Shown: positions 132-49,621 of the stretch, one piece after another
Position numbering within the stretch: position 1 is the stretch's first letter
Layout: the number at the start of each line of letters is the position of its first letter
Assembly (NCBI GenBank): GCA_017452325.1
Contig: JAFTMR010000073.1
Coordinates: 1-49,621 of the forward strand
From: Phascolarctobacterium sp.
GTDB taxonomy: Bacteria; Bacillota; Negativicutes; Acidaminococcales; Acidaminococcaceae
Length of the DNA stretch: 49,621 nt
Reading direction: 5' to 3'
Translations under genes and position numbers: made by a program
The notes under the pieces: generated by a model
Told to the model about the DNA's origin: nothing
Databases searched by the model: none
Seen by the model: only the letters and a program-made list of their open reading frames with translations

Positions 132-173
132 AAACTACACCTACCAAAATAAATCTTTCGTTATAATTTTGCA

Positions 174-191
174 ACCGACATTATTGTCGGT
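174..191. repeat. Palindrome A between hsdS and hsdR
   Basis: A 7-bp perfect inverted repeat, ACCGACA / TGTCGGT, with a four-base loop TTAT. It shares the core CCGACATTA-TGTCGG with palindrome B about 30 bases away. It could be an RNA hairpin in the hsdS-hsdR transcript or a protein-binding site. There is no T-run, so it is not a standard terminator. Confidence 0.6.
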
Positions 192-211
192 CACAAATAA
201 AATTTTCACTG

Positions 212-243
212 ATATGTTCCCGACATTAGTGTCGGGAACATAT
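212..243. repeat. Palindrome B at the 3' end of hsdS
   Basis: A 14-bp perfect inverted repeat with a four-base loop TTAG (arms ATATGTTCCCGACA and its complement), touching the hsdS stop codon. Its core matches palindrome A except for one loop base. The pair could form hairpins that stabilise the upstream mRNA or reduce expression of hsdR relative to hsdM and hsdS; this is inference. Confidence 0.65.
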
Positions 244-1457
244 TACACCTCTACTTCTCCACGCATAAGCTTCGGTAACAAGCGGTCACGTGCTTCTTGC
301 AGAAATTTACATTGCTTATTCAACAATGAAATCCTTTCAAAAATTGGTCTTACCATCTTATCAAATCTATTTAAAACACTATTTTCAGGAACAATAATCT
401 TTGCTTCTTCAAAGTGACTTGGTTTTACAGCAGGATAAGCTGCACCATTAGTACAGTTTATCAAGTAACCTACAAACTCATCTCTTGTTACCAAACAGTA
501 CAAAAACGAATAAGGCACTTTATTTGAAGATATTATCGCAAATCCTGTAGAATATACATTAGTATACTCTGGGTTCAAAATCAAAGCATAAGACCTTAAA
601 TTCGGTCGAACCATTCCCCAAATTATATCTCCATTTTTCGCAATCCTTTTCGCTCTACCTGGAGCATCATTTATACTATAACGTTTTACATTTGTTATTG
701 TTCCCTTACTTACACTACTTAAATCTATATAATCAATAAAACTTTCGTTATAATCATTCGTCATATAATTTGTATTAACAGAAGCAATTTCATCTAACCT
801 TTTTTCTTCCCACCCCACTGGCAATCCATCAAAAATCTCAACATCTTCATGTCCAGGAAAGCGCAAATCAACAAACCACTCTCTATATAATCTTTGAGCA
901 GCTTCCTCTAAAAGTTTTATTTGTTTCTGGTTGTTTTCGATAAGATTGTCATAATGACTTAGAATATTTGCTATATTATCTTGAACATTTAGAGTTGGAA
1001 CATCGACTTCTATTTGGGATAACTCACTCGATCTTATTCCTTTAACATTTGTTCCAGATACAATGGCACCTATCGCAGTTCGTCCTGCTAACGATTTCAT
1101 CCAATAATAATAAAATAAAGGATTGCATTCTCTTTTATTTAATCTAACCCTAATAATAGATGACTCAAACACCATATCTTCTTTGGGTTTTTTTATAATA
1201 CTTACTTTTCCAGCACCTGATTCTACCAACGAACGTCTAGCAAATAATAAGTCTCCGTCCAAAAGGTTATAGTTATCTTTCTCTTGTTCAGTAACTTCTA
1301 TTCTCTGTGTATCATAATTGTTAAAAACGCCATAAGCAAAGATTTCTCCCATATTTATTATTTTAGTCCCGGTACCATGAAATTCTTTGCTTTTATACAA
1401 ACCATTCTTTGTAGGTATTAAAAACAGTTCTGAAAAAACTTTTTTCTCCCACTTCAT
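243..1457 (-). CDS. hsdS: Type I restriction-modification specificity subunit
   Basis: 404 residues, normal for HsdS. Two target-recognition domains (about 1-150 and 200-350) are each followed by a helical spacer; the first spacer contains the typical LLEEAAQRLYREWFVDLRFPG stretch and the second ends LQEARDRLLPKLMRGEVEV. The subunit sets which bipartite DNA sequence the HsdM2S methylase and HsdR2M2S nuclease recognise. Its ATG overlaps the hsdM stop by four bases (ATGA), so translation is coupled. No second hsdS or recombinase is visible in the window, so there is no evidence here for shuffling of specificity. The target sequence cannot be read from the protein. Confidence 0.93.
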   Translation of the reverse strand: MKWEKKVFSELFLIPTKNGLYKSKEFHGTGTKIINMGEIFAYGVFNNYDTQRIEVTEQEKDNYNLLDGDLLFARRSLVESGAGKVSIIKKPKEDMVFESSIIRVRLNKRECNPLFYYYWMKSLAGRTAIGAIVSGTNVKGIRSSELSQIEVDVPTLNVQDNIANILSHYDNLIENNQKQIKLLEEAAQRLYREWFVDLRFPGHEDVEIFDGLPVGWEEKRLDEIASVNTNYMTNDYNESFIDYIDLSSVSKGTITNVKRYSINDAPGRAKRIAKNGDIIWGMVRPNLRSYALILNPEYTNVYSTGFAIISSNKVPYSFLYCLVTRDEFVGYLINCTNGAAYPAVKPSHFEEAKIIVPENSVLNRFDKMVRPIFERISLLNKQCKFLQEARDRLLPKLMRGEVEV

Positions 1458-3331
1458 AACCCCATCTCCTTCAAATTCTTGGAAATGGTTTCCATCAGTA
1501 CGTTACTTTCCTCTTGCAAAACCAAAAGTTCTTGGTGAATTTCTTGCATACGTTCTGCAAAATTCACACCATCATCAGCGACAGGTGCTACGCCAACATA
1601 AGCACCAGGAGTAAGACTGTAGTTCTTTTCTGCAATTTCACTTCTGCTTGCAATTTTGCACAAGCCAAGTACATCTTGGTATTCGCCTTCTCCAAATTTA
1701 GAGTAAAGCCAATCCGCTTCCTTAGCCACGGTAAGTACTTCTCCAAAAAAGGCAATCTCTTCATCGTATTGTGCACGCAGATATTTTTTCTCTTTCTTTG
1801 GTGCTTCTTCCACAGCTTCTTTAGCCTTAGTACGCACACTTTCAATAAAGGATTGCAAATCTACAATGGTATTAGCAAAATCCATACCGTCATGCAAAGC
1901 CAAAGCAAAGTCTTTATTTTGTTTTACTGTACCATATTCTCGTAAAACCACACGATATTCAGCAATCAAGTTTTGATATTTGCTTACTTCCCCACGATAC
2001 AACCAAACTATAGCGTTCAAGTTTTTCAGTTGCCAATCAGTCCATTCGTTCAAGGTACGGTCAACAACGGTAAAATAGTTACGCGCATCAATGAATAAAA
2101 CTTTATCCCTAATTTCTTCTTTTTTCGCCTTATCAAAGAACCATAGAGAGCATGGCAAGGAAAGCGTGTAGAAGAAATTGTTTCCAACGCTTATCATTAC
2201 ATCAACATCACCAGTTTCAACCAGTTGTTGTCTAATATCTTTATCTTTGCTTTGACTATCAGTAGCAGAAGAAGCCATAACAAAGCCTGCTCTGCCGGTT
2301 TCTTTCAAGTAGGCATAGAAGTATTGAATCCACAAATAGTTGGCATTACCAACCATCTTGCTCTTTTTGTTCACGCTTGGCAAGCCAAAGGGTAACCTGC
2401 CTGCGTTGCTTGCAGTTTCAGAATTTACTTTGTCAACATTAAACGGTGGGTTAGCCATTACATAATCACATTGACCAACCAAGTTATGAGCATCATTGTA
2501 AAAAGTATTTGCTTCGTCACCAGATTTAATTTTACCGTTCAAACCATGAACAGCAATGTTCATTGCACAAAGCTTGGCATTAAATTCTGCCTTTTCTTGT
2601 CCGTAGAAAGTCATTTGGGTATTAGCAACCATTCCTGCAGAATTTACAAAGTCACCAGTTTGGACAAACATACCACCGCTGCCACAAGCAGGATCAAGAA
2701 GTACGCCTTTCTTCGGTTCCAGAATGTTAACAATCATTCTAACCAAGGACTTGGGAGTAAAGAACACTCCATCGTCAGACGCAACACTCTTTGCAAATTT
2801 GCCAAGGAAGTATTCGTAAATACGACCAAGCACATCACCGCCAACATCGTTGAGCGCATCATTGTTAAAGTTTTTCAGCAAGTCGTACAATACTTTGTCA
2901 GGCAAGCTATTGTAATTTTTCGGAAGTACGCCTTTTAACTGCTCACTTTGCGCTTCAATCAAAGTCATTGCATTATTCAAGGCTTCGCCCAAACTGTTAA
3001 TAGGTTGTCCGTTTTCAGCAATTAGCCCCATGGAAGCAACATTCTCTTTCAGTTCCAACAAATATTTATATTGTGCCATCTCCGGTAGAAAGAGCGCACT
3101 TTTTTCTTTGAAATGAGATTCTTGTACCTTGAAAGGACGGTCAGGACGAGAAGGATGTTCTTTTAAAATTTGTTCGTACACCATTACATATCTGCTGTAT
3201 GCGTAACGCAAGAACAACAAGCCAAGTACAGGCATACAATATTCAGCAGAAGTTAATTTGGAATTAGCACGCAGGTCATCTGCCGCATCCCACAGTTGTG
3301 CTTCTAATACTTTAAGACTTTTATTATCCAT
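1454..3331 (-). CDS. hsdM: Type I restriction-modification DNA methyltransferase subunit
   Basis: About 625 residues. An N-terminal HsdM helical domain is followed by an N6-adenine methyltransferase domain with the SAM-binding motif DPACGSGG (about 213-220) and the catalytic motif NPPF (about 294-297). It methylates adenine in the site chosen by HsdS and is also the structural core of the restriction complex. I chose the ATG at 3331 (MDNKSLKVLEAQLWDAADDL) because a GAGG lies about seven bases upstream; an in-frame GTG at 3343 overlaps that site and is less likely. First gene of the hsdMSR operon, divergent from the AlbA_2 gene. Confidence 0.95.
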   Translation of the reverse strand: MDNKSLKVLEAQLWDAADDLRANSKLTSAEYCMPVLGLLFLRYAYSRYVMVYEQILKEHPSRPDRPFKVQESHFKEKSALFLPEMAQYKYLLELKENVASMGLIAENGQPINSLGEALNNAMTLIEAQSEQLKGVLPKNYNSLPDKVLYDLLKNFNNDALNDVGGDVLGRIYEYFLGKFAKSVASDDGVFFTPKSLVRMIVNILEPKKGVLLDPACGSGGMFVQTGDFVNSAGMVANTQMTFYGQEKAEFNAKLCAMNIAVHGLNGKIKSGDEANTFYNDAHNLVGQCDYVMANPPFNVDKVNSETASNAGRLPFGLPSVNKKSKMVGNANYLWIQYFYAYLKETGRAGFVMASSATDSQSKDKDIRQQLVETGDVDVMISVGNNFFYTLSLPCSLWFFDKAKKEEIRDKVLFIDARNYFTVVDRTLNEWTDWQLKNLNAIVWLYRGEVSKYQNLIAEYRVVLREYGTVKQNKDFALALHDGMDFANTIVDLQSFIESVRTKAKEAVEEAPKKEKKYLRAQYDEEIAFFGEVLTVAKEADWLYSKFGEGEYQDVLGLCKIASRSEIAEKNYSLTPGAYVGVAPVADDGVNFAERMQEIHQELLVLQEESNVLMETISKNLKEMGL

Positions 3332-3373
3332 AGTGTTCCTCACTGATTAGTTTTTCAAAATATACTTATAAAA

Positions 3374-3402
3374 ATTATAGCACATCCGTTGCGTTTCTAA
3401 AA
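3374..3402 (-). promoter_or_regulatory. Probable hsdM promoter
   Basis: On the minus strand a perfect extended -10, TGCTATAAT, lies about 45 bases upstream of the hsdM start. The element 17 bp upstream of it is TTTTAG, a weak -35, as is common with extended -10 promoters. Confidence 0.5.
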
Positions 3403-3461
3403 CAACATAGAAACTATATCTGCACATAGCTTTTCGCAATTCTTTCACTATTACAATTATG

Positions 3462-3485
3462 ATTTTCACCACCCAGAGTGAAAAT
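3462..3485. promoter_or_regulatory. Inverted repeat in the hsdM / AlbA_2 divergent region
   Basis: Arms ATTTTCAC and GTGAAAAT (8 bp, perfect) separated by eight bases, ending just upstream of the -35 of the plus-strand gene. The position suits an operator, possibly bound by the AlbA_2 protein itself; this is inference. Confidence 0.4.
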
Positions 3486-3489
3486 TCAC

Positions 3490-3517
3490 TTGCGTATAGT
3501 GATTTTTTATATATAAT
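3490..3517 (+). promoter_or_regulatory. Promoter of the AlbA_2 gene
   Basis: TTGCGT, 16 bp, TATAAT. A strong AAGGAGG at 3528-3534 sits eight bases before the ATG at 3543. Confidence 0.65.
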
Positions 3518-3542
3518 ATAATTATAGAAGGAGGTTTTACGA

Positions 3543-11248: not shown

Positions 11249-12312
11249 TAGTAGAGTTCCTTTCTTCTGGCAGCAGCAACACGCATCATATCCTTCATCT
11301 GCTCGCCATCACCTGCACGCAATGCCTTACGCCACAGGTCAAGCTGTTCAATATATTTATCAATTTCGTCAGCAACCTTTTCCTTATTGGCAAGGAACAA
11401 GCTACACCACAATTCCGGATTAATATCTGCTACGCGAGAACCATCCTTAAAGCTGCCTGCTACAAAGAACTTGGTCTTATCATTGTAAGAGATACTGTTC
11501 ATCAACGCCACTGCAGTAACGTGAGTCAAATTACTGGTGTAGGCAATGATACGGTCGTGTTCTTCGGGAGTTACCCTTACAGTATTACGACAGCCTAAAG
11601 CCATGGCAAATTTTTCTAGCCACTGTACAGTTTCTTCCCTGTTATGTTTTTCAGGAACAATGATGTAATTGGCATCACGGAAAATTTCTGCCTCAGACAT
11701 TCCCAGTCCACTGCCTTGACGCCCCGCCATGGGATGACCGGAGATAAATTCCATACCAACCTTCAATTCAGCATGAGCATCCTTAGTCAATGTTCCTTTA
11801 ATACCGGAAACATCCGTAATCAAAACATCATCTTTAAAATATTGCACATTGTTGCGTAAGAAATCCACGATGCTTTCCGGATACACAGCGCAAATAATTA
11901 CATCTGCTTCTCGCAAAGCCTCGTTAGGCTCCGTCAGTACAAGGTTAGCAAGTCCCAAACGTTGCACTTGCAGAGCAACCTCTTTATCAATTTCTACTGC
12001 AATTATATTTTTAACACCGAGGTTGCGTAAAGCCTTGGCATAGGAACCACCTATAAGTCCCATACCGATAATGGCAAACTTTAGCTGTTCCCACTTGGTG
12101 CTTCTACCGCGCTTGGTAATCTCTACAACTTGCTCTATGACTTCATCTTCGCCCAAGGTACTAACTTCAAAACCGCTAGTATCACCTACGATACCAAACA
12201 AAGTAATATTAGCACCTTTACTTTCGTGAATGATAAAGCCCTGATTTTCTAGTTTAACTCTAACCCTTAGCTTCGCTTCTTCCGGAACATTGGGTTTAAA
12301 TACGATTATCAT
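11248..12312 (-). CDS. tyrA: Prephenate dehydrogenase with an N-terminal DAHP-synthase-type domain
   Basis: 354 residues. From about residue 76 it is a prephenate dehydrogenase: NAD motif IIGMGLIGGSYAKAL (about 81-95), ISGHPMAGRQGSG, TPEEHDRIIAYTSNLTH. It oxidatively decarboxylates prephenate to hydroxyphenylpyruvate, the Tyr branch. Residues 1-70 (MIIVFKPNVPEEAKLRVRVK, then IVGDTSGF) are plainly homologous to the first 70 residues of the two adjacent DAHP synthases, the ferredoxin-like domain that in Thermotoga-type DAHP synthase carries feedback control. I see no C-terminal ACT domain, so the N-terminal domain may be its Tyr sensor. The fusion is visible in the sequence; the regulatory role is inference. 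Confidence 0.93.
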   Translation of the reverse strand: MIIVFKPNVPEEAKLRVRVKLENQGFIIHESKGANITLFGIVGDTSGFEVSTLGEDEVIEQVVEITKRGRSTKWEQLKFAIIGMGLIGGSYAKALRNLGVKNIIAVEIDKEVALQVQRLGLANLVLTEPNEALREADVIICAVYPESIVDFLRNNVQYFKDDVLITDVSGIKGTLTKDAHAELKVGMEFISGHPMAGRQGSGLGMSEAEIFRDANYIIVPEKHNREETVQWLEKFAMALGCRNTVRVTPEEHDRIIAYTSNLTHVTAVALMNSISYNDKTKFFVAGSFKDGSRVADINPELWCSLFLANKEKVADEIDKYIEQLDLWRKALRAGDGEQMKDMMRVAAARRKELY

Positions 12313-36084: not shown

Positions 36085-38352
36085 CTAGATAACATTTACC
36101 GGGTCCACATCAAAAAAAAGATTACGTTGCTCCCTGAACTCGCTATTCAAAAGAGCATCCTTCACCGGCTGTAAGTCCTTCGCCTTGACAAGAATGTTAT
36201 AGCGGTACATATCCCTAACCTTGGCAACAATCCCCGGGAAGGGACCAAGCACAAGCAAATCCTGCAGCTTACCTTCCAACTGCAAGCCCTGCAGATAAGT
36301 GGTAACCCTTTTCGCCAACGCCAGAGCAGCTGCTTCATCCTTGTCCCAAACAGTCATCTTTAACATCTGGGCAAAGGGAGGATAGAAGAAAGTCTCCCGA
36401 TCTTTTAATTCATCAATGGCAAAGCTGTCGTAATCCTGACGTGCCGCCTGCTGTAACACCTTGCTTTCCACATCATAAGCCTGGAAAATAACATGTCCCT
36501 TCTTATCGCCACGTCCCGCCCTTCCGGCAGCCTGTGTTAAAAGCGAAAAGGTACGCTCTGACGCGCGAAAGTCCGGCAAATTCAGGGCACTATCTGCGGA
36601 AAGCACGCCAACCAAAGTTACGTTGGGAATGTCGTGCCCCTTGGCAACCATCTGAGTTCCAATCAGAACATTACGCTCGCCACGAGCAAAACTGCTCAAA
36701 ATATCTGCGTGAGCAAATTTTTGCGCTGTGCTATCCTGATCCATACGCAACACTCTAACTTCCGGCAGTTCCATCAGCTCAGCCTCTGCCTTTTGGGTAC
36801 CTGTTCCAAAAAATTTAATACGCCTGCTATGGCAGGTAGGACACTCCATAGGAATTTCCGCTGTATTACCGCAGTAATGACAACGCATCGCCTCCCCTGC
36901 GCTGTGATAAACTAACGCCACCGCACAATGAGGACAAACAATGGACGCACCGCAGTCTCGACACATCACGAAAGTAGAATACCCACGCCTGTTCAGAAGC
37001 ACTATTCCCTGCTCCCCATTGGCAGCAGTTGTAACGAGAGCCTGCTTCAGCTTGCGGGAAAGCACGCTAAAATTACGCTCCTGCAATTCCTTACGCATAT
37101 CTACGATTTCAACATCGGGCAATTGGCTTCCCGTAGCACGCTTGGTCAAACGCAAATGCTGATACTCACCTTGCACTGCCTTGTAATAAGTTTCCAAATC
37201 AGGAGTAGCACTTCCTAAAATCAAGGGTGCGCCTGTAAGCTTGGAGCGTTCCAACGCCACATTCCTTGCGTGGTAGTTGGGGCGTTCCTCCTGCTTGTAA
37301 CTACTTTCATGTTCTTCATCTATAATAATCAGTCCGAGATTCTCAAAGGGTGCGAACACAGCACTGCGCACGCCAATTAAAATATTCGCTTGATGAGTGT
37401 GCATCTTGTACCACACGTCACCACGCTCATTTTGAGAAAGCTTGCTGTGAGCAACCGCTACCAAATCACCAAACCAAGCTTTAAACCGCTTCACCAATTG
37501 GGCGGTCAAAGCAATTTCCGGCACAAGCATTAAGACCTGTTTGCCCTGCGCTACCGCTTCTGCCGCGGCACGCAGGTAAACCTCCGTCTTACCACTGCCT
37601 GTAATGCCCTGCAGTAAAAAAGTTTCGCCATCTGCATTTTGCACAGAAGCGTTAAGCTTTTCCAAAGCATTTGCCTGCTCGTCAGTAAGAGTAAAAATTT
37701 CACCACGCTTATGAGGATTAACGTAGCTGTTCCGTAATATACGCTTTTGTCCAACTTCCGCCCAAGCTTTTTCTGCCAAAGTACGGGCTGTGGCAGCACT
37801 CACCTTGTATTCGGAAAGTTCATTTACAGTTAGCCACTCACCTTCGGACAGCACTGCCAGCGCCGCCATCTGAGCCTTCGCCCTGCTGTCGCCAAGTGCG
37901 AGGGCGGCGCGACCGGATTCCGTAATGCGGTAAGCAAGCACAGTTTTTTCTTTCAAACGCTCTTCGTAAGCGTAATAAAGCAGTTTGCCATTTTCATCCT
38001 TCACAGCCTGACGTTTAATACTGGTCTTACCGGGAACAAAAAGGCGCATTGCCTCCGCCAAAGAGCACATATAATAATCAGCCAACCATTTGGCTGTAGC
38101 AAGCATCTCTTTGTAGAACCAAGGTCTGTCGCCCAAGGCTGCTTCAACATTTTTCAGTTTTGCTTGTGCCTGCAGGGGCAAGCTTGCCAGTTCCCTGCGC
38201 TGCACAACAAAGCCTTCCACCTTTTGCGCGCCAAAGGGAACAACCACGCGCCAACCACTGTCCAAAAAATTTAACTCCGCAGGTACGGCGTAAGTAAACT
38301 GCTTGAACAAACTCTTTACAGGCAAATTAATCGCAACATCAACGCAGAACAT
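36085..38352 (-). CDS. priA: Primosomal protein N' (PriA helicase)
   Basis: 755 residues. Restarts collapsed replication forks. N-terminal 3'-DNA-binding domain (VDVAINLPVKSLFKQFTYAV), helicase Walker A GITGSGKTEVYLRAA, DEEHE box, zinc-binding cysteines (CRDCGASIVCPHC and CHYCGNTAEIPMECPTC) and motif VI AAGRAGRGDKKG. Clear GGAGG eight bases before the ATG. First gene of the priA-to-rpe operon. Confidence 0.97.
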   Translation of the reverse strand: MFCVDVAINLPVKSLFKQFTYAVPAELNFLDSGWRVVVPFGAQKVEGFVVQRRELASLPLQAQAKLKNVEAALGDRPWFYKEMLATAKWLADYYMCSLAEAMRLFVPGKTSIKRQAVKDENGKLLYYAYEERLKEKTVLAYRITESGRAALALGDSRAKAQMAALAVLSEGEWLTVNELSEYKVSAATARTLAEKAWAEVGQKRILRNSYVNPHKRGEIFTLTDEQANALEKLNASVQNADGETFLLQGITGSGKTEVYLRAAAEAVAQGKQVLMLVPEIALTAQLVKRFKAWFGDLVAVAHSKLSQNERGDVWYKMHTHQANILIGVRSAVFAPFENLGLIIIDEEHESSYKQEERPNYHARNVALERSKLTGAPLILGSATPDLETYYKAVQGEYQHLRLTKRATGSQLPDVEIVDMRKELQERNFSVLSRKLKQALVTTAANGEQGIVLLNRRGYSTFVMCRDCGASIVCPHCAVALVYHSAGEAMRCHYCGNTAEIPMECPTCHSRRIKFFGTGTQKAEAELMELPEVRVLRMDQDSTAQKFAHADILSSFARGERNVLIGTQMVAKGHDIPNVTLVGVLSADSALNLPDFRASERTFSLLTQAAGRAGRGDKKGHVIFQAYDVESKVLQQAARQDYDSFAIDELKDRETFFYPPFAQMLKMTVWDKDEAAALALAKRVTTYLQGLQLEGKLQDLLVLGPFPGIVAKVRDMYRYNILVKAKDLQPVKDALLNSEFREQRNLFFDVDPVNVI

Positions 38353-38449: not shown

Positions 38450-38480
38450 AAAAGTCAGGAAGACATTGTATCTTCCTGAC
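38450..38480 (-). terminator. Terminator downstream of the Cas9-like gene
   Basis: Minus-strand hairpin GTCAGGAAGA / TCTTCCTGAC (10 bp perfect, loop of seven) followed by TTTTGC. It lies about 100 bases after the Cas9-like stop codon and would give any transcript from this region a defined, structured 3' end. Confidence 0.8.
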
Positions 38481-38494
38481 CATAACCATTCTTA

Positions 38495-38531
38495 CTTGCA
38501 AGCTCATCAATATCCAACAAAGGACTAAAAC
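38495..38531 (-). repeat. CRISPR-repeat-like direct repeat, distal copy
   Basis: On the minus strand it starts GTTTTAGTCCTTTGTTGG and ends GATGAGCTTGCAAG (37 bases). The GTTTTAGTCC start resembles type II CRISPR repeats; the Campylobacter repeat reads GTTTTAGTCCC in the same orientation. About 28 bases of it recur at 38542-38571. One isolated unit plus a partial copy is not an array, so this may be a remnant, part of a guide-RNA gene, or coincidence. Confidence 0.45.
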
Positions 38532-38541
38532 AAATAAATAT

Positions 38542-38571
38542 CTTGCATAAGCTTATCAATATCCAACAGAG
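38542..38571 (-). repeat. Direct repeat, proximal copy
   Basis: Shares TGTTGGATATTGAT-AGCTT and the terminal GCAAG with the distal copy (offset 49 bases), but lacks the GTTTTAG start. It begins about 11 bases after the Cas9-like stop codon. Confidence 0.55.
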
Positions 38572-38582
38572 TTTCTTTTACT

Positions 38583-40835
38583 TCAATACATATCTTCCAG
38601 CAACATAAAGGGAGCAGAACTTTTTACTTCACCACCAAGCTTACCAAGAATATCCACATCATATTTTTTAATTACGTCCTTCTTAGTTACATAATATGCA
38701 ATATCCATTAAAGAATTCCTTTCTCTAACATTCAGTAAACTTCTTGTAACCGCCCTTACGCTTCTGTAGTAACCCTCAAATTTTAAATTTTCCTTTGCGT
38801 CAAATATCTTTATATAATCATTAGTAAAAAGATACATCACGTGCTCCTTATAATTTTCCGGATAAGGAGCAGCTAAATATAATTTCTTACCTTCCTTTTT
38901 GAAATCTACGTACCGTAATCCGCGGAACGCAGTTTTATTATCTTTATTCTTATAAATTTCAACGCAATAATATTTATTGGCACTCAAAACATTTTCGTTG
39001 CCATTGGAATCCATCTTAACAATGGAAGAAGCTTTCCGTTTAACTTTGGGAATGGGATTGTCATCGGTGAGCTTACCTTGAAACTTTTTATTTTGCTTAT
39101 AGCTTATCAAAGGCTGCTTGTCATAATCCTCACACTTCTCCCCATTCGACCAAGCTTTATAAATTTTAGTAGCAAGATTGCTTTTAGCCATATGCACATG
39201 CTTATCATCACTACTGTCAAACAAAAGGTTACCTTCCAAATAATTGGCAAAATATTTGGTAATAAAATTAGTAACCGCTATATTTATATAACTTGGAGAA
39301 TCATACCTTCTAACAATCGCATTAATAACCTTGCGAGCTTCGTTAATAGTTTTAAAAGCAACTACATCCTGCATTATTTCTTCATCAACCTTTTGGGTAA
39401 AGGCTGGTAAAATTTTATGCTTACGTTCAAGTTTAAGCTTTAGCTTGTTATCAGCTAGACGCCTTTCCCGAAGCCATCTTACTTTAAAATTACCGTAAAC
39501 CTCTCCATCTAAGAAAGCATTGATTGCTTCCGTCATATAACGGTCGCAAACATTAACAGTTCCACCAAAATTACTGTAAAGCAATTTTTGGCAAAGCATT
39601 TCATTCCAGCCTGCCTCTTGTAAAACTTTCTCCCTCCGCTTAGGAGTAATATTTTCAGAAAGCAGCACGCTTAACTTTTGCAGCTTGGAAGGATGTTCCA
39701 AAGTAAACAGTTCTTCTGAAATTAATTCCTGATAACTGTAACCACTTGCTTCCAAAGCTTCCTTCAATACATTTAAAGTCTCAAGCGTATCATCAAGCTT
39801 TACCTTATTCCTACCGCTCCGTACTTCTATACCAAAAGTTTTTAAAATTGTCTTTACTGATTTTGTAGAAGCTCTTGCGTTTAACAAACTCTCTTTTAAA
39901 AGTGCGTGCATAGCATCCCGAGGCAAACCGATAGCTTCACCTTTCGCATCAATAAATTTATAGCGTGATAACCTATTAACTAAAATAAACACATCTGCCA
40001 GCACAGTACTCTTAAAACTACGCTTTTCTTCCTTGTAAAACCTGCACTTGCCAACAGAATCTAAATACCCCATAAATTTACGCAACTTATCGTTTTCAGT
40101 ACCAGGTCCTGTTTCAAAATCACGTTGGGCAAAAACTATCCTATCACACAAAAAATTAATATTTTCTGCCGTAAATTGCGGGTAATATTTTGCCTGAGAA
40201 TATAAAATATCTAAAAGTTCCTTCCTAATATATGCACGCTTAATCAGCACAAACCTACCGGTATTCTTATGGTTGTGATAATCAGGAAAGCTTGTCGCAG
40301 TTTTAAAAGCTTCATCATTTAAAATCATATCCGCAACGCTACGATACCGCCCTGCTTGGAAACGCTCTTCAAATTCTGCCAAGCCTGCCTTCACCAAACC
40401 TGCGTCTTTAGAACTAATTTCTTCATTATAATAGTCACTGTAACCACGATGATTACAAATATGAATAATACAATCAGTAATTTCTTCCGCAGTAAGCTTT
40501 TCAGTTAACCCTTTCAAGCGAAGAGCAAAAATATTTTGGTTACCATTCTTCTCCTGCCATAGCCTTAAAGCAGCATCAGTAAGCAAACCAATCTTTTGCA
40601 AAAAGCTTTTGACCCTATCCTTACGATGGGCGCGACGGCGAACCAATCTTCTTAAATTGCGGTACACCCTGCGTTCCTGATTCTTCCTTACTCTACCGTC
40701 AGCAATTTCACCAGAAGCAAATAACCGTATCCCAACATCCTCAACCTGTGCATTATCTTCACCAGTTTGCAAGGCTACGGCAAAGCCAACATAACCAATA
40801 CCAATATCTAAATCGATACCATATTTCCTAGTCAT
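38583..40835 (-). CDS. Miniature Cas9 homologue lacking HNH and RuvC catalytic residues
   Basis: About 750 residues from the ATG at 40835, with GGAGG six bases upstream; an ATG at 40841 abuts that site. RuvC-I is present (KYGIDLDIGIGYVGFAVA; Asp10 kept). The Arg-rich bridge helix (about 48-83) and REC-type motifs HICNHRGY, DSVGKCRF and EEKRSFK follow. The segment before RuvC-II is normal (ARKVINAIVRRYDSPSYINI), but the catalytic Glu is Ala (INIAVTN, about 520). Only about 25 residues separate it from RuvC-III, so the whole HNH domain is missing. RuvC-III reads KHVHMAKSN, with Met at the catalytic Asp position (about 549). The WED and PAM-interacting regions persist; the end VIKKYDVDILGKLGGEV resembles SaCas9. 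Probably an RNA-guided DNA-binding protein that does not cut. No cas1 or cas2 is nearby. Confidence 0.88.
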   Translation of the reverse strand: MTRKYGIDLDIGIGYVGFAVALQTGEDNAQVEDVGIRLFASGEIADGRVRKNQERRVYRNLRRLVRRRAHRKDRVKSFLQKIGLLTDAALRLWQEKNGNQNIFALRLKGLTEKLTAEEITDCIIHICNHRGYSDYYNEEISSKDAGLVKAGLAEFEERFQAGRYRSVADMILNDEAFKTATSFPDYHNHKNTGRFVLIKRAYIRKELLDILYSQAKYYPQFTAENINFLCDRIVFAQRDFETGPGTENDKLRKFMGYLDSVGKCRFYKEEKRSFKSTVLADVFILVNRLSRYKFIDAKGEAIGLPRDAMHALLKESLLNARASTKSVKTILKTFGIEVRSGRNKVKLDDTLETLNVLKEALEASGYSYQELISEELFTLEHPSKLQKLSVLLSENITPKRREKVLQEAGWNEMLCQKLLYSNFGGTVNVCDRYMTEAINAFLDGEVYGNFKVRWLRERRLADNKLKLKLERKHKILPAFTQKVDEEIMQDVVAFKTINEARKVINAIVRRYDSPSYINIAVTNFITKYFANYLEGNLLFDSSDDKHVHMAKSNLATKIYKAWSNGEKCEDYDKQPLISYKQNKKFQGKLTDDNPIPKVKRKASSIVKMDSNGNENVLSANKYYCVEIYKNKDNKTAFRGLRYVDFKKEGKKLYLAAPYPENYKEHVMYLFTNDYIKIFDAKENLKFEGYYRSVRAVTRSLLNVRERNSLMDIAYYVTKKDVIKKYDVDILGKLGGEVKSSAPFMLLEDMY

Positions 40836-40902
40836 TGCCATCCTCCAAACTTCATAAACAAGCTAAACTTTTAAAATATCATTACTGGAAAATACAGCCC
40901 TC

Positions 40903-40931
40903 TTGTTGTACGTATAAATACGTGCTATAAT
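40903..40931 (+). promoter_or_regulatory. hicAB promoter
   Basis: TTGTTG, 17 bp, TATAAT with an extended -10 (TGC before it). The predicted leader before the GTG of hicA is very short, about 16 bases, with AGGAGG at 40941-40946. Confidence 0.8.
40910..40923. promoter_or_regulatory. Palindromic operator between hicAB -35 and -10
   Basis: Perfect inverted repeat ACGTAT-AA-ATACGT, lying exactly in the promoter spacer. HicB antitoxins with ribbon-helix-helix domains repress their own promoter, so this is the likely HicB site. It is also in the upstream region of the divergent Cas9-like gene. Confidence 0.65.
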
Positions 40932-40953
40932 GATTGTTACAGGAGGCGATACA

Positions 40954-41136
40954 GTGAAGCCGAAAGAACTTATTAAAATTCTTGAAGCGAATGGTTGGCA
41001 GCTGCAGCGTTCTCGTGGTTCACATTACACATATAAACACGATAACATTCCTGCTTTGCTAACCATACCAGTTCATAACAAAGATATGAAAATTGGTACG
41101 CTCAATCAACTTCTGAAAGCAGCAGGACTGAAATAG
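40954..41136 (+). CDS. hicA: HicA-type mRNA interferase toxin
   Basis: 60 residues from the GTG at 40954, eight bases after AGGAGG; an upstream in-frame ATG at 40930 lies inside the -10 box and is rejected. Small double-stranded-RNA-binding-like fold: KPKELIKILEANGWQLQRSR, then GSHYTYKH with the catalytic His24, and the ending HNKDMKIGTLNQLLKAAGL. It degrades mRNA when not held by HicB. Complete and apparently active. Located directly upstream of hicB and divergent from the Cas9-like gene. Confidence 0.93.
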   Translation: MKPKELIKILEANGWQLQRSRGSHYTYKHDNIPALLTIPVHNKDMKIGTLNQLLKAAGLK

Positions 41137-41170
41137 TCCTGCTGTACATATCGCAAAGGAGCTTATTGAT

Positions 41171-41566
41171 ATGGAAAAAAGAATTTATCCTGCAATATTT
41201 CATAAAGAAGAAGTTGGCTACTCCGTAACCTTTCCTGACCTTCCTGGTTGCATAACAGAAGGCGATACTTTAGAAGAAGCCTTTACCATGGCACAAGATG
41301 CTTTGGGTATTTATCTCTACACCTTAAAAGAAGATAAAGTAGATTTACCTAAATACGTCGCGCCAGAAGTTTTAATTCTTGATAAAGATAGCTTCATTAC
41401 CCTTGTTGAATGGGATGAGCTAGAATACCTTAAACGTACCAGTAATAAATCTGTCAAAAAGACTCTAACAATTCCAGAATGGCTTAACACCAAAGCAGAA
41501 GAAGAAAATATTAACTTTAGTCAAACTTTACAAAAAGCTTTATTAGAACAATTAGAAGAAGCTTAG
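41171..41566 (+). CDS. hicB: HicB-type antitoxin
   Basis: 131 residues, AAAGGAG before the ATG. N-terminal partial RNase H-like HicB domain (YPAIFHKEEVGYSVTFPDLP, then GCITEGDTLEEAFTMAQDAL) that masks HicA, and a C-terminal ribbon-helix-helix-type DNA-binding segment (KKTLTIPEWLNTKAEEENIN). It should neutralise HicA and repress the promoter through the palindrome at 40910-40923. Confidence 0.93.
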   Translation: MEKRIYPAIFHKEEVGYSVTFPDLPGCITEGDTLEEAFTMAQDALGIYLYTLKEDKVDLPKYVAPEVLILDKDSFITLVEWDELEYLKRTSNKSVKKTLTIPEWLNTKAEEENINFSQTLQKALLEQLEEA

Positions 41567-41990: not shown

Positions 41991-43010
41991 TCACCTATTC
42001 CCATACATCTTTTCATAATAGTTTTGATACTCACCACTGATGATGTTCTCCCACCAGTCGCGGTTATCCAAGTACCATTGAATAGTCTTCTTAATACCAT
42101 CTGCAAACTTAGTTTCAGGCAGCCAACCTAATTCGTTGTGAATCTTAGTCGGGTCAATGGCGTAACGCATATCATGACCTTTGCGGTCAGCAACGTAAGT
42201 AATCAAGCTTTCCGGCTTGCCCAGTTCCTCGCAGATAAGCTTAACGATATCAATATTGCGCATCTCGTTATGACCACCAATATTATAAACTTCGCCAACT
42301 TTACCTTTATGCAGAATCAAATCTATCGCCTTGCAATGGTCTTCAACATAGAGCCAATCACGCACGTTAATGCCTTCACCGTAAACAGGCAAAGGTTTGT
42401 CGTTCAAAGCATTGGCAATCATCAAGGGGATAAGCTTTTCTGGAAAATGGTAAGGTCCGTAATTGTTGGAGCAACGGCTAATAGTCACAGGCAAACCATA
42501 AGTACGGTAATAAGCCAACACCAATAGATCCGCACCAGCCTTAGAGCTGCTATAAGGAGAGCTAGTGTGGATTGGAGTTTCTTCCGTAAAGAACAAGTCC
42601 GGTCTGTCCAAAGGCAGGTCACCATAAACTTCGTCAGTAGAAACTTGATGATAACGTTTAATACCAAACTTACGACAAGCATCCATCAGTACAGCAGTGC
42701 CCATTACGTTGGTTTGCAAGAAAATTCCAGGGTCTTCAATGGAACGGTCAACGTGGCTTTCCGCAGCAAAGTTAACCACGATATCAGGACGTTCTTCCTT
42801 AAAAAGCTGCTCCACTGCCTCGCGGTCACAAATATCTGCCTTCACAAAACGGAAGCTAGGAGCATCCATCACACCTGCCAAAGTGGAAAGATTACCCGCG
42901 TAAGTAAGCTTGTCCAAGCAGATGATACGATAATCAGGATACTTCGCAAGCATATGAAATATAAAATTAGAACCTATAAATCCGGCACCGCCGGTGATGA
43001 TGATTGTCAT
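41991..43010 (-). CDS. rmlB: dTDP-glucose 4,6-dehydratase
   Basis: 339 residues, extended short-chain dehydrogenase. Converts dTDP-glucose to dTDP-4-keto-6-deoxyglucose on the way to dTDP-rhamnose. Marks: TGGAGFIGSNFI (NAD binding), FAAESHVDRSI, STDEVYGDL, YSSSKAGADLLVLAYYRTYG with catalytic Tyr-x3-Lys, and NYGPYHFPEKLIP. Last gene of the surface-polysaccharide cluster; no rmlA, C or D is present here, so the other steps must be encoded elsewhere. Confidence 0.96.
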   Translation of the reverse strand: MTIIITGGAGFIGSNFIFHMLAKYPDYRIICLDKLTYAGNLSTLAGVMDAPSFRFVKADICDREAVEQLFKEERPDIVVNFAAESHVDRSIEDPGIFLQTNVMGTAVLMDACRKFGIKRYHQVSTDEVYGDLPLDRPDLFFTEETPIHTSSPYSSSKAGADLLVLAYYRTYGLPVTISRCSNNYGPYHFPEKLIPLMIANALNDKPLPVYGEGINVRDWLYVEDHCKAIDLILHKGKVGEVYNIGGHNEMRNIDIVKLICEELGKPESLITYVADRKGHDMRYAIDPTKIHNELGWLPETKFADGIKKTIQWYLDNRDWWENIISGEYQNYYEKMYGNR

Positions 43011-43023
43011 ATTAAATTAATAT

Positions 43024-43413
43024 CTATCCTTTTATATCCCTCTTGATTTTAGTAGTACTTATTTCAGGAGTTCTTGGTAAATAAACAACTTCACAATAAT
43101 CTTTTAGAAAATCAAATTTACCTTCCCAATCGTCACCCATAACAAACGTATCAATATGATATTCTTTTACATCATTTATTTTTTGGTCCCAAGCATTTTC
43201 AGGAATCACTAAATCGACATACCTGATAGCTTCCACAAGTTGTTTCCTTATTTCGTATGAAAAATAACACTTCTTACTTTTTTCATTCCAATTAAATTCA
43301 TCGCTTGATACTACAACAACCAAATAATCACCTAAAGCTTTTGCACGTTTAAGTAAATTAATATGACCATAATGCAGTAAGTCAAAAGTTCCATACGTTA
43401 TAACTCTTTTCAT
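43024..43413 (-). CDS. tagD: Glycerol-3-phosphate cytidylyltransferase (TagD type)
   Basis: About 129 residues from the ATG at 43413, with GGAG six bases upstream; the longer start at 43452 lacks a site. Makes CDP-glycerol, the donor for glycerol-phosphate polymers. The nucleotidyltransferase motif is [20 protein letters not shown], and the C-terminal signature is [13 protein letters not shown]. It supplies the substrate of the CDP-glycerol transferase in the same cluster. Confidence 0.92.
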
Positions 43414-43459
43414 CTTCGTCTCCATAATCATATAAATCCATAAAACATTCAAAAATCAC

Positions 43460-44354
43460 TCATTTGTAATAGTCTTTTAATTTTTCCTTATATGAAACTT
43501 CCGCATCAAAAATTTCCATTGTATGCACCGCTGTTCCCTTTTTATAAACCATATAATCTCCATACTCTCTTTTTAAAATAAGGTCATATTCTTTTGGCAC
43601 TCTAATAGTTGTATTTTCAAACGGAAAATCTAGTGCGAAATTATACCATTGTTTATTATAAATATATTTATCTTGTAACAAACCAAATAATGAAATCTGA
43701 CCTACCAACGTAGACTTTTCACACTTAGCAAATTCTTTTTTATATATGCTTAAATACTCATCATAGTCATAAAACAGATTAAATAATTTCCATAGAGCAA
43801 CAGCTTTAGAAAAATAAAATTTCCAATATTTTCTTGGATTGTTCTTAAGTAATCCATTCTTTGTGTATCCAGCACCTACTCTTTCCAGAATGCGTAACCT
43901 AAATTTGTGTACTAAACGTAACAATTTATTATCATATACATAATGTAATGGAAATATATCTATAAAAATTCCACAATTATAATTCTTATCAAACTTCAAT
44001 TTTCGTAAATCACTACTAGTAACTGCTGTAGTAAGACTATTTCTTATCCTTGTCATATTATGCATAATTTGAATATAATATGGTGCCTCCAACTCATCAC
44101 TAGCAATTTGGCAAAACCTTTCATAATCTTTAGCATCTATATATATCAATATCATCATCCCAAGGAATAAACCCTCTATGCCTCACTGCACCTAATAAAG
44201 TTCCTCCACCAGCAAAATAATTTATATTATGTTTCTCACAAATCTTTTTTAATTGTTCCAATAAATCTAATTCAACAGACCATAATTTTTTTACATCACT
44301 AGTAACATAATGTCCACAACGTTCTTCTGGTTCTAAGCTAATATTGTTAAACAC
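43460..44354 (-). pseudogene. licD: LicD-family phosphotransferase gene split by a frameshift at a TA repeat
   Basis: Two adjacent frames together give one LicD protein. The first part (GTG at 44354 onward) has the nucleotidyltransferase motif GGGTLLGAVRHRGFIPWDDD then IDI and stops at Cys-TAA. The second continues from YIDAKDYERFCQIASDELEA to the normal C-terminus (to 43460). The break is at a short TA repeat (44138-44146, TATATATAT on the plus strand). Adding one TA unit joins the frames and restores exactly five residues between DIDI and the conserved Asp-Tyr, the usual LicD spacing. LicD enzymes add phosphocholine or related phosphodiesters to surface glycans. It may be phase-off here, or a sequencing error. 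Confidence 0.85.
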
Positions 44355-44372
44355 TCAAATCATCATCCTTGT

Positions 44373-45527
44373 CTAATTTTTATTTTTTATAATTTCCCAA
44401 ATTAGTTGGGCACACTTCTTACTAGCTTGGCCAGGCATAACCATCCCTACAGCATCAAAGAATTCTTCTAACGATTTTTTATAAATCTCATCGTTAAAAT
44501 CAAGTATATTTTTTTGTAAAGCTTCATTTGTCTCAGCTACAGAGAAAGGTAATTTGAACAAGTCTAAATAAAAATTGCGATCATTTCTATAACTATCTAT
44601 ATCTGTTGCAAATAAGAAACAAGGTTTTCTAGAAAGCGCAAAATCAAAAATCAATGAAGAATAATCAGAAACAACAACATCAGCAACAAATAGTAATTCT
44701 TGTAAGTCTTGATATAGATTTGCATTTATAAGTTGTTCCCCATCAAAATTAATATCTAAATTTTTATCAGATATACTTGGATGCAATCTGACAAGTATTA
44801 CAAATTCTTTTCCAAACTTATTCTTACATGCTTTCTTTAATATTTCATAATCTATGGAATAGGCATGTAATGACTTATCAGCACGAAATGTAGGTGCGTA
44901 CAATGCAACGGCCTTTTCATTCCCTATTCCAAAATACTTAAAGACTTTCCTTTTGATTTCATCACTTTTTTGTACAAATACATCATTACGAGGTGCTCCC
45001 AGTTCTAAAACCTTACCATCATACCAAAATGAATTTCTATATAGTTCAGTCATAAACTTACTACATGATACGATTAAATCTATATGCTTTGAATCTCTGA
45101 TGGCACCTTTCACATAACCTTTACTAAGATTTTCTTGCACATCCTGCTCAATACGTTTCAATGCAAAACCATGCCATGTTTGTAAATAAAACTGCTCTGA
45201 ACGTTTGTACCGAAACGATTTCCTGCAATTATCAATCCAAATTTTTGCTGTTCTAAGGTGATAGGTAGACATAAAGCTCTTTTCAAGACAATAATTTACT
45301 TCTTTTGGAAGACTACTTTTATCTTCCTCATTCTGCAATAACCATATAATTTCTAGATTAGCATTAATCTTAAGTAACTCATTAACAATATATTTAGGAT
45401 TATCACCATATCCTTTGCCAGAAAAATTAGACACAACTATTTTTTTATCGTTTATCGGCATCAATAATCCAATTAGATATGCTAAAGGTCTTATGAACCT
45501 AGATACCTTCCTTAGAATAATATTCAT
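44373..45527 (-). CDS. CDP-glycerol glycerophosphotransferase (TagB/TagF-like)
   Basis: 384 residues. Family marks: WHGFALKRIEQD in the acceptor region, and DVVVSDYSSLIFDFALSRKPCFLFATD, the typical CDP-glycerol-binding segment with catalytic His nearby. It would add or polymerise glycerol phosphate on a lipid-linked or sugar acceptor, using CDP-glycerol from TagD. Peripheral membrane protein; no signal peptide. The coding sequence is visibly richer in A+T than the housekeeping operons, suggesting horizontal origin. Good ribosome-binding site GGAAGAGAG. Confidence 0.9.
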   Translation of the reverse strand: MNIILRKVSRFIRPLAYLIGLLMPINDKKIVVSNFSGKGYGDNPKYIVNELLKINANLEIIWLLQNEEDKSSLPKEVNYCLEKSFMSTYHLRTAKIWIDNCRKSFRYKRSEQFYLQTWHGFALKRIEQDVQENLSKGYVKGAIRDSKHIDLIVSCSKFMTELYRNSFWYDGKVLELGAPRNDVFVQKSDEIKRKVFKYFGIGNEKAVALYAPTFRADKSLHAYSIDYEILKKACKNKFGKEFVILVRLHPSISDKNLDINFDGEQLINANLYQDLQELLFVADVVVSDYSSLIFDFALSRKPCFLFATDIDSYRNDRNFYLDLFKLPFSVAETNEALQKNILDFNDEIYKKSLEEFFDAVGMVMPGQASKKCAQLIWEIIKNKN

Positions 45528-45552
45528 GTAAATCTCTCTTCCTCCAAAACCT

Positions 45553-46521
45553 TTAAACCCTCTTGCTTACTCCAGACAACTTTGCATACAATTTATGTAC
45601 ACTCTTACAATTTTTAAAACTCCATAGCAAAAATTTATGTTTCGAGTGCATCCTGTTAACATACTTAATATTGAGATGTTCATTTATAAAATTGGAAACA
45701 TCTATAAATCTTTCAGAAGCCTTATTTTCATCATTAGCATAGAAAGCAGTTAGAACTGCTAAAGCCGTTTCCAAAGCAAGCAATTCACAATCGTTAATAC
45801 AACTAAGGTTATTCTCTTTAGCAAAATTTAATCTTTCTCTATATCCAAGGAAGCAATCATATCTGCTCTTACTGTTAAAACCGGAAGCAACTATGCTTCC
45901 TTTTCTTTTTAAGTAGTTATAGTATGGTTTTGAAATATAACCCACTTTTTCTGAATTAGATATAAATTTATAAGTTGTTGCTACATCTTCATAAATTCTT
46001 CCTTTTGGATAACGAACATTACCAATAACACTACGCTTGTAAATTTTATTCCATGCAGCATTATCCAATGTTCCATTCAAAATTTCACAGGTAGCTTCAT
46101 CTTTCAACCAGATTTTATTTTTGGAATATCTTGGTTTAAACTTAGCCTTTCCATCTTTCACTTGATTGGTATCTGCACATACAATGTCTAAATTATTTTC
46201 TTCCATATAATTCAGCATTTCTTGATACATGTATCGTTCAACCCAGTCATCACTGTCAATGAAGCCTATTACTTCACCAGTAGCAACATCTATACCAGCA
46301 TTACGAGCATCACTCAAACCGCCATTCTCTTTATGAATTACTCTTACACGTTCATCTTTTTGTGCATATTCATCACAAATCTTTCCGCAGTTATCCGGTG
46401 AACCATCATCAACAAGAATGAGCTCAAAATCTGTAAAGGTTTGATTCAAGATAGAATCAACGCATTTATGAATATACTGTTCTACTTTATATACGGGTAC
46501 TATGATAGAAAGTTTAGGCAT
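45553..46521 (-). CDS. Family 2 glycosyltransferase
   Basis: 322 residues. GT-A fold: SIIVPVYKVEQYIHKCVDSI, LVDDGSPDNCGKICDEYA, ENGGLSDARNAGID, and the metal-binding FIDSDDWV. The C-terminal part is as in capsular or LPS glycosyltransferases. Sugar donor and acceptor cannot be told. One base from the upstream glycosyltransferase. Confidence 0.92.
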   Translation of the reverse strand: MPKLSIIVPVYKVEQYIHKCVDSILNQTFTDFELILVDDGSPDNCGKICDEYAQKDERVRVIHKENGGLSDARNAGIDVATGEVIGFIDSDDWVERYMYQEMLNYMEENNLDIVCADTNQVKDGKAKFKPRYSKNKIWLKDEATCEILNGTLDNAAWNKIYKRSVIGNVRYPKGRIYEDVATTYKFISNSEKVGYISKPYYNYLKRKGSIVASGFNSKSRYDCFLGYRERLNFAKENNLSCINDCELLALETALAVLTAFYANDENKASERFIDVSNFINEHLNIKYVNRMHSKHKFLLWSFKNCKSVHKLYAKLSGVSKRV

Positions 46522-46522
46522 A

Positions 46523-47269
46523 TTATTTTTCCTCGTTAAGCATCTTTAGAAAAATGTATTTATTTAAGGTATAGTTAGCGTAGTTAAGACATAACACGAA
46601 ACCAAGCCATCCTTCCAAGAAGCCTAACTTCAAAATATACATCTTGATAAAGGCAAAGAATGGTCTAAAAACAAAGTCTTTGATTACACTAACCTTTTTA
46701 TTTTTAGCTTTATTGTTTTGCGCGCCAATAGCAGCATAGGAATTCATTTTGCTCAGGTACTGGCTAAAGTCTTTGTAAGTATAGTGTTGGATAAATCCCT
46801 GTAAAGTTTTTACCGGCAAGTTACCTACCGGACTTTCATGCACCTTACCTTCCCATTTAACTAAATCTGTCGGGAACATTCTTACAACGCTATCCGGGCC
46901 CAATACCCCGTATTTAAACTCTCTGCCAAAAGCGCTGTTTCTTCTGATGAAACGGTACATTTCCTTTTCAGAAGCTTGCAGTTCTTTTTTAATATTGGTA
47001 GCTAATTGGTCATCGATGTGTTCATCCGCGTCAAGGTACAGCACCCATTCAGTATCAATGTGTTCTAAAGCAAAATTGCGTTGTGCGGCAAAGTCATTGT
47101 CCCACGCGCGGTAAACTACTTTCGCTCCGTTTGCTTTCGCAAGCTCCACAGTTTTATCCGTACTCCCGGAATCTACAATTAAAATTTTGTCACTTACTTT
47201 GTTAGCATTTTGGATTGCTGCGACAATATTTTCTTCTTCGTTTTTAGTTAAAATTACAATCGTAAGCAT
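46523..47269 (-). CDS. WaaE/KdtX-like family 2 glycosyltransferase
   Basis: 248 residues. Starts MLTIVILTKNEEENIVAAI, then VDSGSTDKTVELAK, FAAQRNFALEHIDTEWVLYL, and the metal-binding DADEH. A conserved tail with EGKVHESP and a C-terminal hydrophobic anchor-like region matches the LPS-core glycosyltransferase group (WaaE). First gene of the cluster, behind a promoter with a poly-G spacer. Consistent with a bacterium having LPS. Confidence 0.9.
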   Translation of the reverse strand: MLTIVILTKNEEENIVAAIQNANKVSDKILIVDSGSTDKTVELAKANGAKVVYRAWDNDFAAQRNFALEHIDTEWVLYLDADEHIDDQLATNIKKELQASEKEMYRFIRRNSAFGREFKYGVLGPDSVVRMFPTDLVKWEGKVHESPVGNLPVKTLQGFIQHYTYKDFSQYLSKMNSYAAIGAQNNKAKNKKVSVIKDFVFRPFFAFIKMYILKLGFLEGWLGFVLCLNYANYTLNKYIFLKMLNEEK

Positions 47270-49245: not shown

Positions 49246-49621
49246 TTATACGATGCAGCTCAAATCGCCCACTGCATGAGTAACATCCTTAACTGCGGAG
49301 AGCAATGCCAAACGATTATTTTTAATTTGTTCGTCGTTGTCCATAACCATTACGTCTTCAAAGAACTTGTTAACCGGGTCTACCAGCTTGCAAGCGATTT
49401 GGAGAACTTCTGCGTAGTTAAATTGAACGGTTGCCAACAGCATTTCGTTGTTAAGGGAAGTAACTGCTCTATGCAATTCACCTTCTGCCGGATTTTGGAA
49501 AAGGTTGGTGTTGATGGCAGTTTCTTGTTCAATTTTCTTGCACAGGTTAGCAACGCGAGTTGCAGCTTGAATGAGAGCAGGAGCTTCTTCAGTTACAACA
49601 AAAGCGTTGAGTGCTTGAGCA
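49246..49621 (-). CDS. glyS: Glycyl-tRNA synthetase beta subunit, C-terminal fragment
   Basis: The reading frame is open from the window edge to a TAA at 49246. The visible 124 residues include LVDPVNKFFEDVMVMDND and then RLALLSAVKDVTHAVGDLS, the conserved C-terminal anticodon-binding region of GlyS. The upstream part and glyQ lie outside the window. Confidence 0.93.
   Translation of the reverse strand, partial: AQALNAFVVTEEAPALIQAATRVANLCKKIEQETAINTNLFQNPAEGELHRAVTSLNNEMLLATVQFNYAEVLQIACKLVDPVNKFFEDVMVMDNDEQIKNNRLALLSAVKDVTHAVGDLSCIV

Follow-up and report, generated by a model that had tools for sequence, protein, structure and literature searches.

Catalytically dead Cas9 (dCas9), made by mutation, is a major laboratory tool, and natural dead versions exist for TnpB and some Cas12 proteins. 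Among related RNA-guided systems, the repressor TldR works without a trans-activating CRISPR RNA (tracrRNA), scaRNA of Francisella uses an active Cas9 as a repressor, and IsrB is an HNH-less IscB with an active RuvC. TldR is a nuclease-dead TnpB for which a 6-nucleotide guide suffices to repress (PMC13418256), and with tracr-L, Cas9 represses through 11 matched nucleotides (PMC11417352). Within Cas9 itself, II-C2 is a rare variant in which a phage Cas9 has a dead RuvC and an active HNH (PMC12669027; originally PMC10910872). The available text of the 2025 classification (PMC12669027) describes no HNH-less Cas9, and a full-text search of the open-access literature (subscription papers and preprints lay outside its scope) found no natural HNH-less dead Cas9; in that literature, as far as its available text goes, the only natural dead form of Cas9 is the phage variant that keeps HNH. 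Here, we describe an HNH-less, catalytically dead, dCas9-like type II-C Cas9 of about 750 amino acids from a gut bacterium, Phascolarctobacterium sp., encoded at 38583 to 40835 on the minus strand of a 49,621-nucleotide stretch of contig JAFTMR010000073.1, which we call the window. It is probably a domesticated Cas9 that binds DNA under RNA guidance without cutting it, most likely as a transcriptional repressor, in effect a natural dCas9.

The gene is one of five. The source genome (G000) also encodes a second short Cas9 of 787 amino acids on contig C96 (L023), and a sister species, Phascolarctobacterium sp. RGIG4568 from roe deer rectum (G003), encodes three (L025, L026, and L027). For brevity, we refer to the five as the dead Cas9s. 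Like their type II-C relatives (G004, G066, and L115 to L117), they have a bridge helix, REC, WED/PI, a closely related repeat, and a tracrRNA with two anti-repeats. Unlike those relatives, they have no HNH, a dead RuvC, no adjacent cas1 or cas2, and no CRISPR array; in place of the array, each gene has a single two-repeat mini-array, and each genome a single tracrRNA gene. They resemble II-C2 as array-less Cas9s with an impaired nuclease and a tracrRNA, but here HNH is what was lost (the opposite loss), the genes lie in chromosomal polysaccharide islands with their own conserved mini-arrays, there is no host array to mimic, and no SNF2 helicase was seen beside the window gene. With TldR they share an inactivated RNA-guided nuclease, an intact frame, a fixed guide, and linkage to surface-structure loci; the window protein, however, is a homolog of Cas9 and not of TnpB, and the targets of TldR are known. 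As with tracr-L and scaRNA, a Cas9 would be steered by a short match to repress transcription, but in those systems Cas9 stays an active nuclease, whereas this lineage lost cleavage by evolution. IsrB (PMC10910872) likewise has a RuvC without the HNH insert, but the window protein is a true Cas9 with a REC lobe that lost HNH secondarily and whose RuvC is dead. The engineered small dead SaCas9 in PDB 8ywh is a chain of 886 amino acids, whereas the window protein is natural and smaller.

The reading frame is open from 40841 (38583 to 40841, 752 codons) and comprises 750 codons from an inner ATG at 40835. That ATG is the likelier start because GGAGG sits six bases before it (GGAGG-6nt-ATG), better placed than for the upstream start. 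The coordinates of an earlier note on this DNA, made from its letters alone, were therefore right, as was its description of an intact 750-codon frame with a good ribosome-binding site. The protein matches NCBIfam TIGR01865 (Cas9; E 3.9e-73), the PADLOC Cas9 models, and, over residues 7 to 529, solved II-C Cas9s (E down to 7.5e-29). AlphaFold, given 20 related sequences, produced a model (predicted local distance difference test [pLDDT] 75, predicted template modeling score [pTM] 0.44) that supersedes an earlier 9-row model (pLDDT 64) and aligns to solved Cas9 structures over residues 4 to 748 with Z up to 23.9. The second-best structural match is 8ywh (residues 4 to 746, Z 23.8). The low pTM and a root mean square deviation of 7 to 9 Å make the placement of the domains uncertain, while the fold itself is not in doubt. 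Alignments and fold match alike bear out the Arg-rich bridge helix, REC lobe, and WED/PI that the earlier note had recognized. The window protein is a Cas9 by descent but not a Cas9 nuclease.

The nuclease parts were compared column by column in an alignment of the five short proteins with 15 full-length Cas9 relatives. All 15 full-length proteins have the His and Asn of HNH, whereas all five short ones show gaps in these columns, confirming the predicted absence of HNH. The RuvC-I Asp, RuvC-II Glu, and RuvC-III Asp are likewise kept in 15 of 15 full-length relatives, while every dead protein has lost at least one RuvC carboxylate together with HNH. In the window protein, the RuvC-I Asp remains (LDIG) and Ala replaces the RuvC-II Glu (INIAVTN), both as first described. 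The third proposed change, RuvC-III Asp to Met, was a misalignment in which a neighboring stretch was taken for RuvC-III; the strand that reads HHAADAIVIA in the relatives is in fact wholly deleted. The paralogue L025 keeps the RuvC-II Glu and the RuvC-III motif, the latter with Asp changed to Asn, and represents an earlier stage of RuvC loss. In L023 and L026, the first RuvC Asp is Glu and the RuvC-II Glu is Gly. From these patterns we infer, as the simplest history, a single HNH deletion followed by trimming of an idle RuvC.

A phylogenetic tree places the window protein inside the II-C-like Cas9s of its class. The five dead Cas9s form one clade (support 100/100), and its sister group is formed by the G004 and G066 full-length Cas9s, which come with an array, cas1, cas2, and a tracrRNA. 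The active G004 locus has an array of repeat GTTTTAGTACTCTGTTGGATATTGATAAACTTACAC. Upstream of its cas9 lies a divergently oriented tracrRNA gene, and behind cas9 come two cas1- and cas2-sized genes, a pair conserved in G066 and L022. Overall identity of the window protein to full-length relatives is 51 to 52% (L029 and L076) and 49 to 50% (L115 to L117). Of the sister-species proteins, L027, whose gene occupies the same locus, is 79% identical to it, and the other two are 64% and 58% identical; the window gene and L027 are orthologues, as are L023 and L026. Chance and artifact are excluded by the 79% identical orthologue in the same place together with three further short homologs. No further HNH-less Cas9 was found outside these two species among 380 Negativicutes genomes, among 398 genomes sampled from the phylum, or in plasmids. 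L021 and L022, considered as further members, were rejected as full-length or ordinary active loci. L022 (positions 1 to 3526) is a contig of a Clostridia metagenome-assembled genome from goat rectum. It encodes a Cas9 C-terminus that shares 65% identity with the window protein, and it also has cas1- and cas2-sized genes together with an array whose repeat differs by one base from that of G004. A distant Cas9 homolog (25.8% identity) also occurs in a 6.8-kb phage record from human feces (MT837457.1:1786-3345).

Selection has kept these genes. The reading frame is intact in five of five, and the ratio of nonsynonymous to synonymous substitution rates (dN/dS) is 0.20 between the window gene and its HNH-less orthologue L027, at dS 0.67, and 0.19 between L023 and L026; in residues 601 to 700 (WED/PI) of the window protein against its orthologue, it falls to 0.06. 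Relaxation in the dead proteins was gauged against how far two groups of active enzymes have diverged from each other. RuvC-II is clearly relaxed (53% identity, against 80% for the active enzymes), as is the remaining RuvC (33% against 59%), and relaxation is mild in RuvC-I, in the bridge helix, and in the central part of REC. The REC parts within residues 81 to 300 are unrelaxed (51 against 51% and 63 against 60%), and so is WED/PI (50% against 53%). Relaxation in RuvC but not in these REC parts or WED/PI is the pattern expected under selection for RNA and DNA binding rather than cleavage. Retained function, for which the earlier note had argued, is supported by homology, by purifying selection, by the preservation of REC and WED/PI, and by a pair of coevolving guide RNAs that the note had not noticed.

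One member of that pair is a mini-array that begins within about 20 bases of the 3' end of each of the five dead genes. First comes a truncated repeat (copy 1), then a 13- to 19-nucleotide spacer whose 3' end reads TATTTATT followed by T or A, and last a second repeat (copy 2) that begins with GTTTTAG or ATTTTAG. In the window, all on the minus strand, copy 1 (CTCTGTTGGATATTGATAAGCTTATGC) occupies 38545 to 38571 and has no 5' GTTTTAG part. It is followed by the 13-nucleotide spacer AAGATATTTATTT (38532 to 38544), whose 3' end, kept in five of five mini-arrays, is a putative seed, and by copy 2 (GTTTTAGTCCTTTGTTGGATATTGATGAGCTTGCA; 38497 to 38531). A hairpin, GTCAGGAAGA-TACAATG-TCTTCCTGAC followed by TTTT (38450 to 38480, minus strand), may mark the end of a dcas9-guide transcript; a terminator scan did not list it, and its tail has only four T. 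Between paralogues, the mini-arrays are 88 to 93% identical, versus 37 to 44% at four-fold degenerate sites of the genes (p 6e-16 to 1e-23). Gene conversion could contribute to this identity; the copies are not identical, and they mostly track the tracrRNA of their own genome. Rfam has no match at dcas9, the mini-array, or the tracrRNA gene. Copy 1 contains a palindrome, ATAAGCTTAT, that is not in the active G004 and G066 repeat. With 6 nucleotides sufficing for TldR, an 8-nucleotide seed is plausible here.

The other member is the tracrRNA. A genome-wide pattern search for the repeat (at most three mismatches) in both genomes found one tracrRNA locus and the mini-arrays in each, and nothing else; neither genome has a multi-spacer array with this repeat, and each dead locus holds two copies. 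The single tracrRNA gene lies on C96 in the source genome (L023, about 11905 to 12090) and on C14 in the sister species (upstream of L025), and it consists of a TTGACA-17-TAGAAT promoter, anti-repeats a and b, a nexus, and a strong terminator. There is none at the window locus or at L026, the sister-species orthologue of L023, suggesting that one tracrRNA serves all loci in trans. Window copy 1 forms standard pairs with anti-repeat a of its own genome at 27 of 27 positions (3 of them G-U), and window copy 2 does so with anti-repeat b from C96 at 33 of 33 (4 G-U). At four of the five loci, the duplex of copy 2 and anti-repeat b runs the length of the repeat without a mismatch to the tracrRNA of the same genome, and L027 has one mismatch; in the active system, the same register leaves four unpaired positions. 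A compensatory change has turned an A-U pair of the active relatives into C-G in the copy 2 duplex of the dead lineage, and another pair of this duplex is U-A in the source genome versus C-G in the sister species (L025 and L026). The copy 1 duplex with anti-repeat a shows a similar change from A-U to G-C, with the exception, again, of L027.

Two anti-repeats in the same orientation are present in the tracrRNAs of the whole lineage (L023, L025, L029, L076, L115, L116, and L117). In the dead-lineage tracrRNAs, the predicted fold pairs the 5' arm with anti-repeat b, giving a self-folded form reminiscent of tracr-L; a similar 5' sequence occurs in the tracrRNAs of active relatives. This pairing of the 5' arm with the molecule's own anti-repeat would suit a natural single guide of the tracr-L type, but the stretch before the arm is an unlikely guide because it is short and unconserved. 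In the active array of G066 (L076:10682-11144), a three-spacer block is duplicated exactly.

These features suggest the following mechanism. The dcas9 transcript would carry the mini-array in its 3' untranslated region (3'UTR), so that the two are transcribed together, and copy 2 would pair with the single genome-encoded tracrRNA. Maturation, probably by RNase III, would yield a CRISPR RNA (crRNA) whose short, invariant seed ends in UAUUUAUU(U/A), and this crRNA would load the dCas9 encoded just upstream. The complex would then bind a chromosomal or mobile-element site flanked by a protospacer-adjacent motif (PAM) and block transcription. By analogy, the protein probably works like TldR or engineered dCas9. 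The HNH-less dead Cas9 and the retained function of the earlier note are supported and its RuvC-III detail is not, while RNA-guided DNA binding without cleavage, which it also proposed, is the most likely activity.

Several observations weigh against such a repressor. HNH-less Cas9s are known from two species only. The spacers are short (13 to 19 nucleotides), and their conservation among paralogues is limited to the last 8 nucleotides. A promoter scan detected no promoter specific to the mini-array, and copies 1 and 2 of L027 each have one mismatch with the sole tracrRNA found in its genome. In the source and sister genomes, the guides have no full-length match beyond their own loci, and exact 11-nucleotide seed matches are no commoner than those of a reversed control in either. 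A PAM could not be derived, since the spacers of active relatives have no true protospacer in phages or IMG/VR. Matches to guides of 18 to 19 nucleotides with at most three mismatches comprised the guides' own loci and scattered weak matches, 14 per genome versus 5 and 2 for controls. In both genomes, an 11-nucleotide seed match, TGTATTTATTA, lies in the conserved promoter region before an aminotransferase-like gene (G000:C101:46143 and G003:C12:161456), and this orthologous match may be a weak lead to a target. Two further ideas were rejected. The seed motif looked rare in the DNA of both genomes, but relatives that have no dead Cas9 show the same rarity, so this is no signal of avoidance. 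Autoregulation through the tracrRNA promoter was also considered; the seed matches 10 nucleotides of that promoter in active relatives, a stretch that is lost in the dead loci.

The conservation of both repeat copies could also reflect a function confined to RNA, with the complex binding mRNA or the mini-array acting as a sponge or 3'UTR control element for tracrRNA or dcas9. Anti-repeats a and b match copies 1 and 2, and copy 1 is as well conserved as copy 2 (26 of 27 columns across the five loci), although it has no 5' end of the kind required by a normal crRNA. In a duplex model, the seed GUAUUU can moreover pair with AAAUAC just before the tracrRNA terminator at three loci, which may be a lock or chance. 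Against this, the part that reads the PAM in DNA, WED/PI, is as well conserved as it is in active enzymes and, by the low dN/dS noted above, strongly selected in the window orthologues, and copy 2 retains the full start of a crRNA repeat. We regard an RNA-only role as unlikely.

Another possibility, already raised in the earlier note, is that the dead protein and its tracrRNA form a decoy or anti-CRISPR that soaks up crRNAs of other type II-C systems. The phage II-C2 Cas9 sets a precedent, being array-less, with a dead RuvC and a tracrRNA anti-repeat that matches host repeats perfectly (PMC10910872). The dead-lineage tracrRNA also pairs well with the active G004 repeat (30 Watson-Crick pairs, 2 mismatches), and the islands that house the genes look mobile. 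However, a cognate active Cas9 and an array with this repeat are missing from both genomes, and the full-length Cas9 of the sister species (L028) uses an unrelated repeat. Each dead gene furthermore keeps its own conserved mini-array, which would be superfluous to a thief of crRNAs and whose duplex has coevolved with its own tracrRNA. A decoy is therefore disfavored, and we consider it quite improbable.

Each of the five dead genes sits at one edge of a surface-polysaccharide island (rfbB, glycosyltransferases, LicD, and CDP-glycerol transferase), and the islands stand beside different core genes. In the window, the island fills the interval between glyS, whose 3' end marks the upstream side (49246 to 49621), and priA on the downstream side (36085 to 38352), both on the minus strand; in G001 and G002, the interval is empty and priA directly follows glyS. 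The island ends in an rfbB-type dTDP-glucose dehydratase gene (41991 to 43010, minus strand), next to genes for a cytidylyltransferase, LicD, a CDP-glycerol glycerophosphotransferase, and two glycosyltransferases (43024 to 47269, minus strand). In the sister species, two dead cas9 genes stand directly behind rfbB, at about 50 bp and on the same strand. A hicA-hicB toxin-antitoxin pair (40930 to 41566, plus strand) separates dcas9 from rfbB in the window and is absent from the orthologous sister-species island. A hicB 99% identical to it lies beside L025 (L025:13036-13431), and this identity at two dead-Cas9 islands in two species points to recent movement. No cas1 or cas2 was found beside the window gene, where the neighbors are polysaccharide, toxin-antitoxin, and core genes (the wider genome was not searched). 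The gene is not phage-borne, given its priA and glyS flanks, no IMG/VR pattern match, and no close phage match. A cobalamin riboswitch (Rfam RF00174) lies near the second dead-Cas9 locus (L023:7029-7213).

This setting invites an analogy with Cas12k and CRISPR-associated transposons, in which dead Cas9 and a fixed guide would position or protect the island insertion. The edge location at five of five islands beside different core genes and the empty glyS-priA site in G001 and G002 fit that idea, but no transposase was seen beside the dead genes, and a seed common to islands at different sites cannot encode an individual site; we hold it to be very unlikely. That the locus is a functionless remnant of a decaying CRISPR system, as the lack of cas1, cas2, and an array beside the gene, the loss of HNH and RuvC catalytic residues, and the restriction to two species might suggest, is extremely unlikely in view of a dN/dS of 0.2 at dS 0.67, five intact frames, mini-array conservation far above four-fold sites, and compensatory pairing with the tracrRNA.

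Linkage to the islands may mean that the dead Cas9s regulate polysaccharide genes, or merely that such islands collect genes. On the first of these, we tentatively propose, as a possibility rather than an expectation, the first natural family of fully nuclease-dead Cas9s, with HNH excised and RuvC destroyed, in which paralogues share one tracrRNA in trans and each carries a hard-wired 3'UTR guide that would regulate surface-polysaccharide loci transcriptionally. If the repressor reading is true, domestication into an RNA-guided binder has happened to Cas9 as well, and nature offers a dCas9 scaffold of 750 amino acids. The lineage would then permit testing why a bacterium keeps two or three dead Cas9s beside its surface-polysaccharide genes.
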